Source: an uncultured Lachnospiraceae bacterium (GTDB lineage Bacteria > Bacillota > Clostridia > Lachnospirales > Lachnospiraceae). From it: a stretch of DNA of 64,000 nucleotides. Of this stretch, positions 3,682 through 48,079 are shown piece after piece (within the stretch, counting starts at the first letter, position 1; every line of letters starts with the position of its first letter). The notes beneath the pieces are model-generated. The model saw nothing but the letters and a program-made list of their open reading frames with translations, made no database searches and was not told the origin of the DNA. The DNA lies in assembly GCA_949949005.1 (NCBI GenBank), contig CATLHM010000007.1:62001-126000 (forward strand). Reading direction: 5' to 3'. Both the position numbers and the translations under genes were made by a program.

Positions 3682-6228
3682 ATGGCGGACAGAACGAGGA
3701 AATTTTTATGGAGCAGCCTGATTGGAATGCTGTTGCTGTGTATCACGGTATTTTTTGCCCTTGCTGTTTTCATGAACAGGAGAACCAAGGAATCCATTCA
3801 GGAGATCAGTGAAATTTATATGGAAGAGTTAAACTCCCAATTGCAGGAGAAATTTTCTACTGTGATAGAACTGCGTTTGGGACAAGTGGGTGAGATTATC
3901 ATTCAGGTACCGGCACAAAGGGTTGAATATGGGACTGAAATGCTGGATATGCTTATCCAGAGTGTTGATGTCAGGAACTTTGATTATGCCGGTTTCCTTA
4001 CAAAAGACGGTGCCCTGTCACGAATCTATGGGGAAGATCTTGACATTTTTAATGATGTAGACGTTTTGGATGTGCTGGATAGGACAGGGCATCTGGTGGG
4101 AATGGGAACCAACAAGGCGGGAGATAAGTTTCTTCTTCTCGGGCAGTTGGCATCCTATCCTATGGAGGACGGACAGGAGAGCCTTGCGCTGGTGACTGGC
4201 GTTTCCATGGAGTATTTAAACCAGGCTCTTTTTCTGGATGAAGAGGATGAGCAGGTTTATTCCCATATCATTGACAGGGAGGGAAATTTTGTTATCCGAA
4301 ACGGAGGAGCATTCAGAAACAGTTATTTTGAGCGGGTCAGGGAGGTATATGGGGATTACAATGGAAAGACTGTGGAGGAGTTCATTGGGCAGCTTCAGGA
4401 AACTATGAATGCAAATCAGTCCTACAGTGACCTTGTCTGGGTGGAAGGGGAAGAGCGTCAGATTTATTGCTCACCGATTGCCGATAATTCCAGTTGGTAT
4501 CTGATCAGCCTCATGAAAAATGACACATTGAATGAGGCGGTTACCAGGCTGGATAATATGCGTTCCGGGATCATGATCGGAAGCTCGCTGATTATACTTA
4601 CGGCCATGCTATTTGTGTTTTACAAATATTTCGGCCTGACCCAGCGGCAGATGCGGGAGCTTGACAGGGCCAAGGAGGAAGCGGTTTATGCCAATAAGGC
4701 GAAAAGTGATTTCCTTTCCAGTATGAGCCATGATATCCGCACGCCGATGAATGCCATCATCGGCATGACGGAAATTGCCATGAAGAATATCGTTGACCCG
4801 GAGCGGATGGAGGACTGTCTGAAAAAGATCATGCTTTCCAGCAAGCATTTGCTTGGCCTGATCAACGACGTACTGGATATGTCCAAGATTGAAAGCGGAA
4901 AAATGACCTTGAACATGAATCTGATGTCCCTTCGGGAAACCATGGATGATATCGTCAATATCATCCAGCCCCAGGTGAAAGCCAGGAGCCAGTACTTCGA
5001 CATTTTTATAAGAAACATTATATCCGAGGATGTGTATTGCGACAGTGTGCGCATCAACCAGGTGCTGTTAAACCTTCTTTCCAATGCGGTGAAGTTTACC
5101 CAGGAGGAGGGAAGGATAGACGTACATGTCTATCAGGAAAAGTCAGATAAGGGAGAGGGGTATGTCCGGACTCATTTTGAGGTGGAGGATAACGGCATTG
5201 GAATGTCGGAGGAATTTCAGGAGAGAATTTGGGACACCTTTTCAAGGGACAGCTCCGAACAGGTACAGAAGACCACCGGAACCGGGCTTGGGATGGCGAT
5301 TACCAAGAGGATTGTGGAGCTTATGGGGGGAACCATTGGCCTGAGCAGCGAGCTCGGGAAAGGAAGCTGTTTCCATGTGATCCTGGACTTCCCGAAGGGG
5401 GAGGCTCCGGATGAGATGAAACTTCCGGAGTGGAATATCCTGGTGGTGGACGATAATGAGATGCTCTGCCGCAGTGCGGTGGCTAACCTGGAAGAGCTGG
5501 GAGTACATGCAGAGTGGACTCTGGATGGCAGGAGAGCCGTTGAAATGATAGAAGAACGCCACAACAGGAATGATGATTACCGTTTTGTGTTGATTGACTG
5601 GAAAATGCCAAACATGAACGGCTTACAGACAATCCGGCAGATTCGTGAGAGGGTTGGGAGGGACATACCGGTCTTTCTTATTTCTGCCTATGATTGGTGC
5701 GAGATCGAGGAGGAAGCTACAAATGCGGAGATCGAAGGGTTTATTTCCAAGCCCCTGTTCCGTTCCACCTTGTATGGCTGTCTGCACCATTATGTGGAAG
5801 GCACGGCTGCGGAGGAAAATGAAAACGAAAGTAAGGGGGTTGATTTCACCGGAAAAAGAATCCTGCTGGCAGAAGATATTGAGATCAACTGGGAAATTGC
5901 CAATGAAATTCTTTCCTCCTTTGGCTTTGAGATGGAGCATGCGGAAAATGGAAAGATTTGTGTGGATATGTTCTCTGCCTCAGAGGTGGGATATTATGAC
6001 GCTGTCTTGATGGATATCCGTATGCCTGTGATGAACGGATATGACGCCACAAAGGCGATCCGGGCCCTTGCGAGGAAGGACAGCAACCTGCCCATCATTG
6101 CCATGACAGCAGATGCCTTTGAAAATGATGTCCAGTTCTGTTTGCAGTGCGGTATGAATGCCCATGTGGCAAAGCCCCTTGACATTCAGGAGCTGATCAG
6201 GACTTTGCAGAAAGCATTGGGGATGTGA
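3682..6228 (+). CDS. Hybrid sensor histidine kinase with two receiver domains
   Basis: A membrane-bound phosphorelay protein of about 848 residues. A helix near residues 8-28 and a second near 293-313 flank an extracytoplasmic sensor domain of about 260 residues. The cytoplasmic part has a HisKA domain with the phospho-acceptor in SHDIRTPMNAIIGM (His350), a HATPase domain (NQVLLNLLSNAVKFT), and two receivers with phospho-acceptor Asp639 (IDWKMPNMNG) and Asp778 (MDIRMPVMNGY). AAGGGG lies seven bases before the ATG at 3682; the frame also has an ATG at 3667, which has poorer spacing. No HPt or output domain is present, so it must signal through another protein. It lies 45 bases after yicI and may sense a related sugar; that role is inferred from position. 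Confidence 0.88.
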   Translation: MADRTRKFLWSSLIGMLLLCITVFFALAVFMNRRTKESIQEISEIYMEELNSQLQEKFSTVIELRLGQVGEIIIQVPAQRVEYGTEMLDMLIQSVDVRNFDYAGFLTKDGALSRIYGEDLDIFNDVDVLDVLDRTGHLVGMGTNKAGDKFLLLGQLASYPMEDGQESLALVTGVSMEYLNQALFLDEEDEQVYSHIIDREGNFVIRNGGAFRNSYFERVREVYGDYNGKTVEEFIGQLQETMNANQSYSDLVWVEGEERQIYCSPIADNSSWYLISLMKNDTLNEAVTRLDNMRSGIMIGSSLIILTAMLFVFYKYFGLTQRQMRELDRAKEEAVYANKAKSDFLSSMSHDIRTPMNAIIGMTEIAMKNIVDPERMEDCLKKIMLSSKHLLGLINDVLDMSKIESGKMTLNMNLMSLRETMDDIVNIIQPQVKARSQYFDIFIRNIISEDVYCDSVRINQVLLNLLSNAVKFTQEEGRIDVHVYQEKSDKGEGYVRTHFEVEDNGIGMSEEFQERIWDTFSRDSSEQVQKTTGTGLGMAITKRIVELMGGTIGLSSELGKGSCFHVILDFPKGEAPDEMKLPEWNILVVDDNEMLCRSAVANLEELGVHAEWTLDGRRAVEMIEERHNRNDDYRFVLIDWKMPNMNGLQTIRQIRERVGRDIPVFLISAYDWCEIEEEATNAEIEGFISKPLFRSTLYGCLHHYVEGTAAEENENESKGVDFTGKRILLAEDIEINWEIANEILSSFGFEMEHAENGKICVDMFSASEVGYYDAVLMDIRMPVMNGYDATKAIRALARKDSNLPIIAMTADAFENDVQFCLQCGMNAHVAKPLDIQELIRTLQKALGM

Positions 6229-41819: not shown

Positions 41820-43355
41820 ATGTCAGTAAAAACATTTGCGGCCATAGACGCGGGCTCCTATGAGCTTGCCATGAAGATCTATGAGGTTTCAGGCACGGGA
41901 GGTATGCGGCAGATCGACCATATCCGCTACAGTATTGATATGGGGACGGAAACCTATGGTGTGGGAAGGCTTTCCTATGAGAGGGTGGACGAGCTCTGCC
42001 GGGTGCTGCGGGAATTTTCGGATATCATGAAGTCCTATCGGGTGGAGGAATATAAGGCTTACGGCACCAGCGCCATCAGGGAGTCCAGAAACCGGGCCAT
42101 CCTCTTAGACCAGATCGAACAGAGGACGGGCATCCATATTGACGTGCTGAGTAACTCGGAGCAGCGCTTTTTGGATTACAAGTCCATCGCTTTTCAGGGG
42201 GAAGGGTTTGAGCGGATCATTGAAAATGGCACGGCCATTTTGGATATCGGAGGAGGAAGCATCCAGATTTCCCTGTTTGACAACGATACTCTGGTTTCCA
42301 CTCAGAATATGCGGCTGGGGGTGCTGCGTCTTCAGGAGAGGCTTTTTCATTTGGACGCCAGCATCAGCCAGTACGCCACCTTAATCGGGGAGATGACCGA
42401 GGCCCAGATGAGCGTTTACAAAAAGCTGTATCTGAAAGACCGGCAGATTAAGAGCATTATTGTGGTGGATGATTATATCTCGGCCCTGGTCATGAGCAGA
42501 AAGGGAAAGGACGTGGTGAAGGGCTATGCAGACCGGAAGACCATGGAATATTTTACGGAGATCTGCCGCACCAGAAGCTTTTCAGAGCTCTCCAAAACCC
42601 TGGATATGCCCGAAAAGAATATCCCGCTGCTGTATATCTCCATGATTATGCTACACTGCATCATGGAACATATGGGGGCCGAGCAGATCTGGGCGCCAGG
42701 GGTGACCTTATGTGACGGGATTGCCTATGAGTATGCGGAAAAAAATAAAATCATGACCGCCTCCCACGATTTTGAGAAGGATATTATCGCCTGCGCCCAA
42801 AACATCAGCAAGCGCTACAGGGGCAGCAAAAAGAGAAGCGAAACCCTGGAAAAGATTGCCCTCTCCATCTTTGACAGTATGGAAGGGATCCACGGGCTGG
42901 GGAGAAGGGAGCGGCTGCTGCTGCAGATTTCCACCATTCTCCACGACTGCGGGAAGTACATCAGTATGGTGAATCTGGGAGAGTGCTCCTACAGTATCAT
43001 CATGTCCACGGAGATCATTGGGCTTTCCCACCAGGAGAGGGAGATTGTTGCCAATGTGGTGAAATACAATCACCTGGAATTTGACTATGACAAGACCATG
43101 GGAAGCAGTTCCATGGACAGGGAGTCTTACCTGAAAATTTCCAAGCTCACGGCGATTTTGCGGGTAGCCAACGGCCTTGACAGAAGCCATAAGCAGAAAT
43201 TTAAGGAGGTTCGGATTTCCTTAAAGGAGGATGAGCTGATCCTGGCGGTAGATACCCGCGAAAATATTATGCTGGAAAAGGGGCTTTTTGATGCCAGGGC
43301 GGATTTCTTCGAGGAGGTCTACAATGTCAGGCCGGTGATCAGGAGGCAGCGCTAG
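41820..43355 (+). CDS. ppx: Ppx/GppA exopolyphosphatase with HD domain
   Basis: A 511-residue protein. The ASKHA-fold half starts FAAIDAGSYELAMKIY and has YGTSAIRESRNR, DIGGGSIQIS and MRLGVLR, the phosphate and polyphosphate site. The C-terminal half contains an HD domain (ILHDCGKYISM, LSHQEREI). It should hydrolyse polyphosphate or pppGpp. The ATG at 41820 follows GGAGGGGG; the longer frame goes back to 41739 without a ribosome site. It lies 125 bases before the ppk open frame. Confidence 0.9.
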   Translation: MSVKTFAAIDAGSYELAMKIYEVSGTGGMRQIDHIRYSIDMGTETYGVGRLSYERVDELCRVLREFSDIMKSYRVEEYKAYGTSAIRESRNRAILLDQIEQRTGIHIDVLSNSEQRFLDYKSIAFQGEGFERIIENGTAILDIGGGSIQISLFDNDTLVSTQNMRLGVLRLQERLFHLDASISQYATLIGEMTEAQMSVYKKLYLKDRQIKSIIVVDDYISALVMSRKGKDVVKGYADRKTMEYFTEICRTRSFSELSKTLDMPEKNIPLLYISMIMLHCIMEHMGAEQIWAPGVTLCDGIAYEYAEKNKIMTASHDFEKDIIACAQNISKRYRGSKKRSETLEKIALSIFDSMEGIHGLGRRERLLLQISTILHDCGKYISMVNLGECSYSIIMSTEIIGLSHQEREIVANVVKYNHLEFDYDKTMGSSSMDRESYLKISKLTAILRVANGLDRSHKQKFKEVRISLKEDELILAVDTRENIMLEKGLFDARADFFEEVYNVRPVIRRQR

Positions 43356-43489
43356 TGTTTTGCAGAGAAAGAAAAGCGGGCCCGGCCCGGATAAGAGCCT
43401 TATCATTTTCCATGAGACAGAAAATTATAAACAGAAAAACATATATAGGGTTGCGGAAAGAAAATATTTCCGGAAGGGGGATGGAGAAA

Positions 43490-45619
43490 ATGAACAAATC
43501 CATATATGACGATCCGTCGTGCTACAGCAATCGGGAGCTGAGCTGGATCATGTTTGACAAGCGGGTACTGAGCGAGGCGTTGGATGATGAGACGCCGCTT
43601 TTTGAACGTCTGAAATTTTTGGGGATTTCCGCGTCCAATCTGGATGAATTTTTTATGGTGCGGGTGGCGTCCTTAAAGGATATGGTACACGCGGGCTACA
43701 CCAAGACGGATATTGCGGGGATGACCGCCACGCAGCAGCTTGACGCCTTAAGCCATGTGACACACGAGCTGGTGGAGCAGCAATACGAGGTCTATAATCA
43801 GGAGCTTTTGCCAAAGCTGGAGGAAAACGGCATCCGGGTGATCCAGCGCCATGAGGAGCTTACGGAACGGGAAGCGGCCTATGTGGACAGCTTTTATGAG
43901 GAAAACGTTTATCCGGTGCTCACGCCCATGGCGGTGGATTCCTCCCGCCCTTTTCCCCTGATTCGGAATAAATCCCTGAATTTGGGGGCACTGGTGAGGA
44001 AAAAGGCAGGAGATGAGACCCTTGAGTTTGCCACCGTCCAGGTGCCCAGCGTTCTTGACCGGATGGTTGAAATCCCTGGAAAGGAAGGGGAGGCAAGGAC
44101 GGTGATCCTTTTGGAGGAAGTCATCGAGCGCAATATCCATAAGCTTTTTATGAACTATGATATCGTAAGCTCCTGTCCCTTCCGTATCATGCGCAACGCC
44201 GACCTTACCATTGAGGAGGACGAGGCGGAGGACTTGCTCAAAGAGATTGAGCGTCAGTTAAAACGCCGTCAGTGGGGACAGGCCATCCGTCTGGAGGTGG
44301 AGGAGGGGATCGACGAGAGGCTTCTTGCGATCATTGAGGAAGAGCTGGGGGTTTCCGAGGAGGAAATTTACCGGATCGGGGGCCCTTTGGATCTGACCTT
44401 CCTCATGAAGATGTACGGCCTTTCCGGTTATGACCATCTGAAAGAAAAACGCTACGCGCCGCCACAGCCGGTGCCGGATCTCTCCGGAGATTTTGATATT
44501 TTTGAAAAAATCAGGGAGAAGGATATTCTGCTCTTCCATCCCTATGAGACCTTCAGCCCTGTGGTGGATTTCATCCGGCAGGCCTCCCGGGATAAGGATG
44601 TGCTTGCCATCAAGCAGACCCTCTACCGTGTCAGCGGCAATTCCCCCATCATTGCGGCTCTTGCCCAGGCGGCGGAGAACGGCAAGCAGGTTTCCGTGCT
44701 GGTGGAGCTCAAGGCCCGTTTTGACGAGGAGAACAATATTGTCTGGGCGAAGATGCTTGAAAAGGCAGGCTGCCATGTAATCTACGGCCTGGTGGGACTT
44801 AAGACCCACAGCAAGATTACCCTGGTGGTGCGCCGGGAGGAGGACGGCATCCGAAGGTACGTACATTTGGGAACCGGAAATTACAACGACGCCACAGCCA
44901 AGCTTTATACGGACGTAGGGCTTCTGACGGCTGCACCCTCCATCGGCGAGGACGCCACGGCGGTGTTCAACATGCTTTCCGGCTATTCGGAGCCACTGAG
45001 CTGGAATAAGCTTTCCCTTGCCCCTCTTTGGCTCAAAGACAGGTTCCTCACTTTAATAGGAAGAGAGAGGGAAAATGCCCTGGCAGGCCGGGGCGGTCAT
45101 ATCATTGCCAAGGTGAACAGCCTTTGCGATAAGGATATCATCAAGGCGCTGTATGAGGCTGGGGCAGCGGGAGTGAAGATCCAGCTCATCGTGCGGGGAA
45201 TCTGCTGCTTAAAGACAGGCCTTCCTGGAATCGGCGATAACATCACAGTCCGCTCCATTGTTGGAAATTTTTTGGAGCACAGCCGTATTTTTTATTTTGA
45301 GAACAATGGAAAGCCGGAGTTTTACTGTGCCAGCGCCGACTGGATGCCGAGGAATTTAGAGCGCCGGGTGGAGATCATGTTCCCGGTGGATAAGCCGGAG
45401 CTGCAGCGAAAGCTGATGAATATTTTGGAAACCCAGCTTGAGGACAATGTAAAGGCCCATGTCCTTACGGCGGAAGGCGTTTACCAGAAGGTGAGCAGAG
45501 GGGGAAAGGGAGCGGTTAACTCTCAGTTAGAGTTTTGCCATATGGTGAAAGACGCTTTAAGGGCTCACGGGAAGCTGGTGAACAGCAGGGTATTTATTCC
45601 TGAGAAGCATCATGAATAA
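43490..45619 (+). CDS. ppk1: Polyphosphate kinase 1
   Basis: A 709-residue enzyme that makes polyphosphate from ATP reversibly. The N-terminal domain has SNRELSWIMFDKRVLSEA and NLDEFFMVRVASLKDM. The two phospholipase D-type domains have GLKTHSKITLVVRRE with the autophosphorylated His, then FLEHSRIFYFENNG with a second catalytic His, and LGTGNYNDATAKLYTD. ATG 43490 is chosen for the spacing to the GGGGG tract; ATG 43481 is possible. It is the last gene of the polyphosphate cluster. Confidence 0.95.
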   Translation: MNKSIYDDPSCYSNRELSWIMFDKRVLSEALDDETPLFERLKFLGISASNLDEFFMVRVASLKDMVHAGYTKTDIAGMTATQQLDALSHVTHELVEQQYEVYNQELLPKLEENGIRVIQRHEELTEREAAYVDSFYEENVYPVLTPMAVDSSRPFPLIRNKSLNLGALVRKKAGDETLEFATVQVPSVLDRMVEIPGKEGEARTVILLEEVIERNIHKLFMNYDIVSSCPFRIMRNADLTIEEDEAEDLLKEIERQLKRRQWGQAIRLEVEEGIDERLLAIIEEELGVSEEEIYRIGGPLDLTFLMKMYGLSGYDHLKEKRYAPPQPVPDLSGDFDIFEKIREKDILLFHPYETFSPVVDFIRQASRDKDVLAIKQTLYRVSGNSPIIAALAQAAENGKQVSVLVELKARFDEENNIVWAKMLEKAGCHVIYGLVGLKTHSKITLVVRREEDGIRRYVHLGTGNYNDATAKLYTDVGLLTAAPSIGEDATAVFNMLSGYSEPLSWNKLSLAPLWLKDRFLTLIGRERENALAGRGGHIIAKVNSLCDKDIIKALYEAGAAGVKIQLIVRGICCLKTGLPGIGDNITVRSIVGNFLEHSRIFYFENNGKPEFYCASADWMPRNLERRVEIMFPVDKPELQRKLMNILETQLEDNVKAHVLTAEGVYQKVSRGGKGAVNSQLEFCHMVKDALRAHGKLVNSRVFIPEKHHE

Positions 45620-45636
45620 AGGAAAGAGAGGAATGT

Positions 45637-47254
45637 ATGGAGAAGCAGAGTATCATTAAGGATAAAATCGTAAAATTTGTTCGGGGGGGGGTACTTTTCG
45701 TTACTGTTGCTGTTTCAGATCGGAATGATTGTTTATTTTAACTTTTCCGATATACGTAATTCATTGGACAGCGACTTTGCCAATACGATTTATCATTTTC
45801 AGGAGGTAATCAAAAACGGTACGTTAAATCTTGAAAACTGGAATCACACCACCTCCATGGAGCTTGACGCAACCTTCCTGTTTGCGGTACCGGTCTATTA
45901 TTTGATACATAATATATATACCGCTGTGGGAATTGCCAATATGATCTATGTAGCGCTGTATATCGTGACGATTTGCGGTATTTTCAGAGGGCTGCAAGTA
46001 AAGAAGCGTTATCTGTTTTTTACTCTGTGTCTGGTTTTGACTCCCTATTCCTTCGGAATGCTGGAATATTTTAATATGATGTTTTATGGGGGAGCCTGCT
46101 ATTCTCTGAAAACATTAGTCCCTTTGCTTTTCATCTGGCTCTTTATGCTTTTTGAAAAGCAGGGGGAAAGGAGAAGAGAAAAAGGACTAAAAGCGATAGT
46201 CTTATTGTTATACTTTTTCCTCTTGTTTGTCACTTCATTTTCTACCGGATTTTATGTGATGCTTTGCGGCATTTTTCCCTTATTTGGCTGTATGATACTG
46301 GATATTCTGAAAACGGGCGCAGGGGCAGGCAGATACCGCCGCTCACAGATAGGACTTGCTGTCGGAAGCGTTCTTGTTTTTGGAACAGGCTATTTCCTTC
46401 ACCAAAAGTTTTATGGTCTTATTTCGAGAAACGGTATGATGCTGACCAAAATAGAGAATTATGCTATTAATTTCAGGGCCTGTGTCAGAGGAATATTCGA
46501 TGTATTCGGCGCAACATTTTCAGAGGACATCAGAGCCTTGTCGCCTGTGGGGATCTGGTACTGTCTGAAAATGGGGTTTGTCGTACTGCTTTTGATTGTC
46601 CTGGGGGTTCGCATGGTCAGCCTGTTTCAGAAGAGGCAGAGACCGGATGTGAGAGATTTCCTTACAGTCCTGCCCCTGTTTAACTTCCTGGTGTTATTGA
46701 TAGCGGATTCCAGGTATTCTACCAATACGCACATTGAATACCGTTATTATCTGATAGGTGCAGTCCCTCTTCTTTTGCTCCTGGGAATACAACTGGATGA
46801 GTGGGAGGAAAAATGGAACGGGTTTCAGAAGAATATCCTGCTGCTTCTCTCAGGCGCTGCTTTGGCACTTTTGATGGCTGGAAACAACGTGGAGGTGATC
46901 AGGCGATGGGACCGAACCTCTTACGCGGTGGAGCTGTGCGACTACTTTAACACCTTAGACGTGGAATCCGTGTTTTTTGTAAATGATCCGGATACAGCGC
47001 ATATTTGTAAAGGGATTGATGCAAACCATAAATTCGGAACGTTTTTGTCAGATACCCAATCCCTGGAGCTAAGTATTTGCAGCTACTATGAATCGGAGCA
47101 CGGCAGCTTTTACGGCGACAAAAATGCGCTGGCCGTGTTTATCTACACCGTCCCCGAAGATTATATGCCGGAGGAAATTGCTTCCCATTATACAAAGGTA
47201 GGAACTGTAAGATGGTTTGAAATCTATGTGGGCGATGAGGTTTTATTCCCGTAG
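45637..47254 (+). CDS. Polytopic membrane protein, frameshifted at a nine-G tract
   Basis: The ATG at 45637, with GAGAGGA upstream, gives MEKQSIIKDKIVKFVRGG and then a stop in the +0 frame after 34 residues. The rest of the gene, about 525 residues, is open in the next frame from 45677. The two join at a run of nine G (45683-45691); with eight or eleven G they would be one protein starting with a basic N terminus and TM1 (YFSLLLLFQIGMIVYF). The body has about 10-11 helices with an extracellular-looking C-terminal tail, an architecture like GT-C or DUF6056-type glycosyltransferases. I do not recognise the family. The G tract is either a phase-variable switch (OFF here) or a sequencing error. 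Confidence 0.7.
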
Positions 47255-47359: not shown

Positions 47360-48079
47360 ATGCTGAATAAAGAGTATACGATTATTTTGGCCTCCGCCTC
47401 GCCAAGGCGCAGGGAGCTGCTTACCCAGATCGGCGTTCCCTATCAGGTGATGGTCAGTGATGCGGATGAAACTGCCGCCAGCCATAAGCCCTGGGAGATG
47501 GTGGAGGAAATTTCTGCCAGCAAAGCGGAGGCGGTTTTCAAAAAGATTTTGGTGGACGAAGGACTGAGAGTGGAAGAAGGGCAGAGCGAGACAGGAGAGC
47601 AGAGGACAGGACAAGGGCAGAGGACAGGTCAAGAGCAGAGGACAGGGAAAGAGCCGAGTGGCCTGGCAGGACAGGGAAAGCCGGATTGTTTCGTGGTGGT
47701 GGGAGCCGACACGGTGGTTGCCCTCGGGGATCAGATTATGGGAAAGCCCAAGGACGGGGAGGATGCAGTCAGGATGCTTTCTCTCCTCCAGGGAAAGACT
47801 CATCAGGTCTATACGGGAGTGACGCTGCTGATCGCAGATGGGGGAGAAGGTAAGCCACGCAGGCTTTCCTTCCATGAAAAAACGGATGTGACCATGTACC
47901 CCATGAGCCGGGAGGAGATCTGCGCTTATGTGGAGAGCGGCGAGCCCATGGACAAGGCCGGGGCCTACGGGATTCAGGGCAAATGCGCGGCTTTTATCAG
48001 AGGGATATGCGGAGATTATAATAATGTAGTGGGCCTGCCGGTGGGAAGATTATATCAGGAGCTTAAGGAGATTATATGA
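47360..48079 (+). CDS. maf: Maf family nucleotide pyrophosphatase with repeat insertion
   Basis: A 239-residue protein (the family is usually 185-200). ILASASPRRRELL is the N-terminal motif, then GADTVVALGDQIMGKPKD, YVESGEPMDKAGAYGIQGK and VVGLPVGRLY. The family hydrolyses non-canonical nucleoside triphosphates. Residues about 73-107 are an insertion built on QRTGQ repeats, encoded by 18-base tandem units (47579-47668), placed before the GADTVV core. The enzyme may still be functional as the insertion sits in a surface region. The stop overlaps the next start (ATGA). Confidence 0.92.
   Translation: MLNKEYTIILASASPRRRELLTQIGVPYQVMVSDADETAASHKPWEMVEEISASKAEAVFKKILVDEGLRVEEGQSETGEQRTGQGQRTGQEQRTGKEPSGLAGQGKPDCFVVVGADTVVALGDQIMGKPKDGEDAVRMLSLLQGKTHQVYTGVTLLIADGGEGKPRRLSFHEKTDVTMYPMSREEICAYVESGEPMDKAGAYGIQGKCAAFIRGICGDYNNVVGLPVGRLYQELKEII
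47579..47668 (+). repeat. 18-bp tandem repeat inside maf
   Basis: Three close copies at 47597-47614, 47615-47632 and 47633-47650 share the core GCAGAGGACAGG and encode EQRTGQ, GQRTGQ and EQRTGK. Diverged copies flank them at 47579-47596 and 47651-47668. The unit is a multiple of three, so copy-number change keeps the reading frame. It is a minisatellite candidate. Confidence 0.88.

Follow-up and report, generated by a model that had tools for sequence, protein, structure and literature searches.

Within the 64,000-nucleotide stretch of DNA analysed here, which we call the window (uncultured Lachnospiraceae bacterium, assembly GCA_949949005.1, contig CATLHM010000007.1, positions 62,001 to 126,000 of the forward strand), lies a gene whose reading frame is broken, shortly after its start, by a tract of nine consecutive guanines (G9). 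We think it quite probable that this is a slipped-strand phase-variable gene, switched at the G tract. Its parts, among them a leader open reading frame (ORF) and a long body ORF, are set out below in window coordinates, followed by the flanking genes.

45626..45632, + strand: ribosome-binding-site-like GAGAGGA, read from the sequence; its GAGG stops 5 bases ahead of the ATG at 45637
45637..45741, + strand: leader ORF, by translation 34 codons and a stop as sequenced, out of register with the body on entering the G tract
45677..45679, + strand: TTG, which at G9 is in the body frame and may act as a weak alternative start; the nearest AAGGA ends 14 bases upstream
45683..45691, + strand: G9 tract, found at the matching codon in two homologs (L003 and L007)
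45692..45693, + strand: TA flank, common to most of the sampled long G tracts of the genus
45677..47254, + strand: body ORF, by translation 525 codons, first start TTG, in another frame than the leader; product predicted to be GT-C-like
45725, + strand: internal ATG of the body ORF
45767..45775, + strand: codons for the residues D31-S32-D33 that follow the first helix; all of the 18 aligned homologs share D33
43355..45619, + strand: polyphosphate kinase gene (ppk), ending 17 bases before the start codon at 45637
47360..48079, + strand: Maf-like gene (maf), downstream of the tract gene

The body comes into register with the leader that begins at ATG 45637 when the length of the tract is 2 modulo 3. 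An initial annotation of this stretch had read the locus in the same way, and its account of the anatomy holds: the nine Gs do break the frame, with leader and body in different frames; the start at 45637 has the good ribosome site claimed for it; the body of about 525 residues is an open frame of 525 codons; and the arithmetic by which eight or eleven Gs would restore one protein is right.

Counts of G or C runs in the window drop about 4.7-fold per added base, from 104 runs of five to 10 of six and none of seven or eight, and then there is the single run of nine. The whole assembly holds 11 runs of exactly seven and 13 tracts of eight or more Gs; tracts of nine or more number 11, compared with 0.63 extrapolated from the decay of the shorter runs. 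The long tracts are thus a population separate from the shorter runs.

A scan of the contigs of other genomes yielded five close homologs of the gene (L003 to L007), 65-69% identical to it. Both L003 and L007, which come from separately named metagenome assemblies, carry G9 followed by TA at the homologous codon and are out of register in the same way as the window; L006, whose tract site reads G7 followed by CCC, is in register; L004 and L005 lack a tract, and their genes run unbroken from an ATG upstream. The tract site of the close homologs therefore holds G9 in two of five, G7 in one and no tract in two. Since the DNA of L003 and L007 is 68-69% identical to the window over the gene, and 75% identical beside the tract for both, G9 has not been kept by inertia. 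The six genes form one clade (support 100/100) whose inner forks are open, and one gain of the tract with later loss within the clade is possible. In every one of the 15 pairs among the six, divergence is greatest at third codon positions, and between L006, in phase, and L007, out of phase, nonsynonymous divergence (dN) is 0.11 and synonymous divergence (dS) 0.885. Purifying selection acts on all of the bodies, and the out-of-phase copies are not in decay. The initial annotation had reasoned that eight Gs in all reads and all relatives would show an assembly error, and that a tract fixed at nine in every cell, with the gene decayed elsewhere, would likewise tell against a switch; among the relatives only L006 has a tract shorter than nine, and none has a decayed body.

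To see the tract in its wider setting we classified 13 long tracts of the window's own assembly, 63 tracts of the genus that are followed by TA (from the first eleven listed genomes plus all or part of the tract-rich G060, G002 and G025, out of 106 listed G8TA tracts) and 20 genus tracts that are not (the first 20 of 88 listed). Tracts of the own assembly were scored ON in 4 cases, OFF in 2 and other in 7; the corresponding figures are 18, 26 and 19 for the genus tracts with TA, and 3, 9 and 8 for those without. After genus tracts near the ends of their loci had been dropped (79 of 83 were kept), 34 of 54 classifiable tracts of eight or more Gs were OFF, that is, they split ORFs out of frame. 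Shorter runs rarely do so: OFF calls among controls at the same loci came to 5 of 37 G5 runs and 1 of 6 G6-7 runs (together 6 of 43), and in the window and L004 to L007 to 3 of 103 G5-7 runs and 25 of 296 G4 runs. The idea that any G run would look broken to such a classifier is rejected by the G4 and G5-7 controls. Tracts of the TA set fall into 20 in register and 16 and 12 in the two out-of-register classes (p 0.37 against equal thirds), and overall 24 of 61 tracts are ON (p 0.34 against one third), which is what free drift of tract length predicts. Lengths among the 61 are nine in 33, eight in 15, ten in 12 and eleven in 1. Orthologous tracts in two species (L039 and L046) have nine and ten Gs within flanks that are 81% identical; another orthologous pair, L041 and L088, has ten Gs in both, with flanks 80% identical. 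G8TA tracts occur in 31 of 37 genus genomes, with up to 12 per genome; where homolog sources of this genus bear a name, it is Lachnospiraceae.

We suggest that replication slippage would add or remove Gs at the tract, and that one length class in three would join leader to body and allow full expression of a membrane glycosyltransferase of GT-C type, an enzyme that would transfer a sugar from a lipid carrier to a surface glycan on the outer side of the membrane. Other length classes would give a short stub, at G9 perhaps with a little protein from the weak TTG at 45677. A population would then mix cells with and without one glycan decoration, and the sequenced consensus (G9) would represent a low or off phase. 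This proposal, which draws on the position of the tract, selection on the body, the phase statistics and analogy with known systems, is the mechanism that the initial annotation had put forward, and it gains support from the finding of G9 at the matching codon of two relatives, the intact and selected body, and the excess of frame breaks at long tracts across the genus. On the comparative evidence a slipped-strand switch is a better explanation than error or decay. An assembly error or a decayed gene might be suspected, given that the window's assembly is incomplete (59%, 41 contigs) and out of frame here, and G tracts are hard to sequence, as excerpts of a report on Bifidobacterium note (PMC9187656). 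The same G9 in the separately assembled L003 and L007, the intact bodies with synonymous change far above nonsynonymous, and the rarity of out-of-frame shorter runs make both explanations very improbable. We give as little credence to programmed slippage, in which RNA polymerase or the ribosome would slip at a fixed G9 while the DNA stays invariant. That three copies share nine Gs and the same phase is what it would lead one to expect, but the genus shows the in-register class and both out-of-register classes (20:16:12), orthologous tracts differ in length (9 and 10), and L006 is in register at G7.

A less remote, still unlikely, alternative is that translation at G9 begins just before the tract. 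In that case the tract would decide whether the N-terminus is long or short, or would have little effect, and there would be no on/off switch. The only body-frame starts upstream of the tract at G9 are TTG in the window, TTG in L003 and GTG in L007, standing one to four bases ahead of it, and the first helix of the body would be retained either way; the initial annotation had passed over the TTG of the window. Their ribosome sites, as read by eye, are weak (none is well placed in the window, with an AAGGA 14 bases off, and L003 and L007 have only a GGA at 6 and 3 bases), and L004, L005 and L006 begin at an ATG well upstream. As a rule for the genus, alternative starts find no support, for among 36 out-of-frame tracts such starts lie in the body frame in 15 and in the idle third frame in 12. 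Several results nonetheless weigh against a switch of this gene or against parts of our account of it. Because of the weak starts, G9 could mean a short or weak form of the protein, not an off state. All three G9 copies (window, L003 and L007) have the same length and the same phase, where free switching predicts otherwise; identical length is in itself not improbable, nine being the commonest length. A profile search over 392 genomes of the order brought 12 further, more distant homologs, and no run of seven or more Gs is present in the fetched stretches of any of them (0 of 12). The classifier has a background, seen in the G4 and G5 runs that it scored OFF (25 of 296 and 5 of 37). Dinucleotide shuffling of the window does not make a G8 run improbable, as 2 matches were found and 8.45 are expected; the bare run therefore proves nothing, and we have relied instead on the run-length excess and the position of the tract in homologs. 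Finally, the assignment to GT-C rests on a model with a mean predicted local distance difference test score (pLDDT) of 56.5 and on Foldseek E values of 0.03 or worse.

The structural model of the body, built from six sequences (pLDDT 56.5; predicted template modelling score 0.63), shows some dozen long helices, with an alpha/beta part at the C-terminus. Among the best 50 of 418 Foldseek matches in the PDB, those with probability 0.93-0.99 are all GT-C proteins (AglB in two entries, OST, AftA and ArnT; E 0.03-0.16), and the other listed PDB matches reach a probability of 0.28 at most. GT-C enzymes carry an acidic residue in the first extracytoplasmic loop, and an Asp after the first helix is expected of them. 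D33 follows helix 3-24, and we take D31-S32-D33 to be the GT-C acidic motif, with the sidedness of the loop presumed. No Pfam or NCBIfam model naming a GT-C family matches at E 0.05, and sequence searches of the PDB returned no GT-C chain, only four carboxylase matches at E 0.7-1 or nothing. The body protein resembles AglB/OST, ArnT and AftA in having a predicted membrane body of many helices, a conserved Asp after the first of them and a soluble part at the C-terminus, and differs from these named enzymes in lacking a family-model or PDB-chain sequence match to them. The look of a cell-surface glycosyltransferase noted earlier agrees with the fold search, weakly and on a low-confidence model, and finds no echo among family models. 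We regard a GT-C glycosyltransferase as the likely identity of the protein, and it may have a role in a surface glycan.

The dinucleotide that follows the tract deserves separate attention. Counting the own genome, the 37 genomes of the genus contain 114 copies of G8TA against 21 of its mirror, AT-G8, and TA exceeds AT in 30 genomes, with the reverse in 1. Among the matches listed, 62 of 150 tracts of eight or more Gs are followed by TA, under a pattern that excludes tracts with a G nine bases on; TA follows 5-6% of G3-6 runs, and exact G7 runs seem, by eye and among the matches listed, mostly to be followed by A. The base after the run stands at codon positions 1, 2 and 3 in 10, 17 and 21 of 48 cases, and because it takes all three positions the TA flank is a feature of the DNA. 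A codon effect is not supported by those positions, and a role for TA in making stop codons is not compelling (TAA or TAG in 27 of 62). In the order, G9TA is present in 57 of 146 genomes and 41 of 93 genera (about 204 occurrences to 60 mirrors, summed by hand), and in the phylum it is present in 75 of 299 genomes (about 131 to 70), so that the bias weakens with phylogenetic distance from genus to order to phylum. Easier melting beside the run is our guess at a cause. It is conceivable, if rather doubtful, that the order possesses a lineage-wide, multi-gene phasome with a frame-independent signature, G8-11 then TA. TA would then act in cis, either by setting slippage, for instance through easy melting next to the tract, or by flagging the tract for a dedicated factor, and switchable genes could be recognised from sequence alone. 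The TA flank makes the mechanism of slippage testable with reporters.

The sampled tract genes include ones for glycan methyl-, acyl- and glycosyltransferases and regulators, and once the tract lies in a promoter. Pfam was searched with 74 ORF pieces, which came from 95 tracts (L008 was excluded, as were pieces shorter than 80 codons); among the 25 of 74 families listed, it gave SAM methyltransferases in 8 pieces, Acyl_transf_3 in 6, AraC HTH in 4 and FkbM in 3, with MBOAT, epimerase, GT2, solute-binding and response-regulator domains in 2 each. Tract genes of the own genome include acyl carrier protein (ACP) synthase III, an AraC response regulator, a radical SAM protein and an acyltransferase. 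In the tract of promoter type, nine Gs lie in the spacer of 17 bases that separates TTGACA from TAAAAT (L009, 1490-1515; L129, own genome, C1:191600); the genes behind it are presumably one lipoprotein-like and two permease-like, and the arrangement looks like a poly-G switch of sugar uptake.

On/off switching at poly-G tracts is known mainly from pathogens such as Campylobacter. In excerpts of a study of the Campylobacter phasome (PMC6321876), tract lengths at poly-G contingency loci are 53% nine and 26% ten, the share of ON tracts in a larger set is close to neutral drift, and the experimental work used tracts of eight or more. The tracts described here are alike, as far as those excerpts go, in lying within genes, in peaking at nine and ten (33 and 12 of 61), in an ON share near neutral drift (24 of 61), and in affecting several genes per genome, surface-modifying ones among them; they differ in belonging to another phylum, in a much higher GC content and in being known from sequence alone, and they show a preference for a TA flank, a point on which the Campylobacter excerpts are silent. 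Excerpts of the Bifidobacterium report describe sortase pili for which a G tract inside a surface gene leaves it as two ORFs that replication slippage joins (PMC9187656). Both cases concern Gram-positive commensals, presumably of the gut here too, with an intragenic G tract splitting a surface gene or, here, a putative one; in the excerpts, Bifidobacterium has one or two pilus clusters per genome and measured mixtures of tract lengths (PMC9187656), whereas here many gene classes are involved, as read from sequence. A search of titles and abstract openings in part of the open-licence literature found no report of poly-G phase variation in Lachnospiraceae. The mechanism is already known, gut Gram-positives included; its reach across this lineage and the TA flank are the parts that seem new. 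If sequencing reads confirm switching, accounts of commensal surface diversity, phage escape and strain calling in metagenomes must allow for poly-G tracts.

The gene itself was not found in any of 35 congeners, and a search for homologs on plasmids or phages gave no match. Its neighbours are ppk and maf in the window, other genes in L003 to L005, and a setting common to L006 and L007; absent from those congeners and with neighbours that differ in most homologs, it seems often to have been moved or lost. The polyphosphate kinase gene, which stops 17 bases ahead of the start codon of the tract gene, may be co-transcribed with it.

Some individual tracts merit mention. In the own genome, an in-frame G9 (L023, C10:92938) falls within a response regulator's AraC-type DNA-binding domain, where slippage would truncate that domain and so switch a regulator, and another (L016, C3:115927), also in frame, sits close to the C-terminus of an ACP synthase III-like enzyme. 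A third region of this genome (L128, C20:20001-40000) has three long G tracts within 13 kb, at 5241, 7000 and 17857, one of which, of 11 Gs, is out of frame in an acyltransferase; the genes there look like a polysaccharide cluster. At L069 (G035:C54:57000-61000) three G9TA tracts stand within 1.2 kb, and two of them have flanks that match at 95% identity over 374 bases, which indicates that the tract-bearing stretch has been repeated. At least nine of the listed G9TA tracts lie 60 bases or less from the first base of their contig (in G091, G102, G112, G160 and G178), and assembly seems to break at the tracts, through mixed lengths or sequencing trouble.
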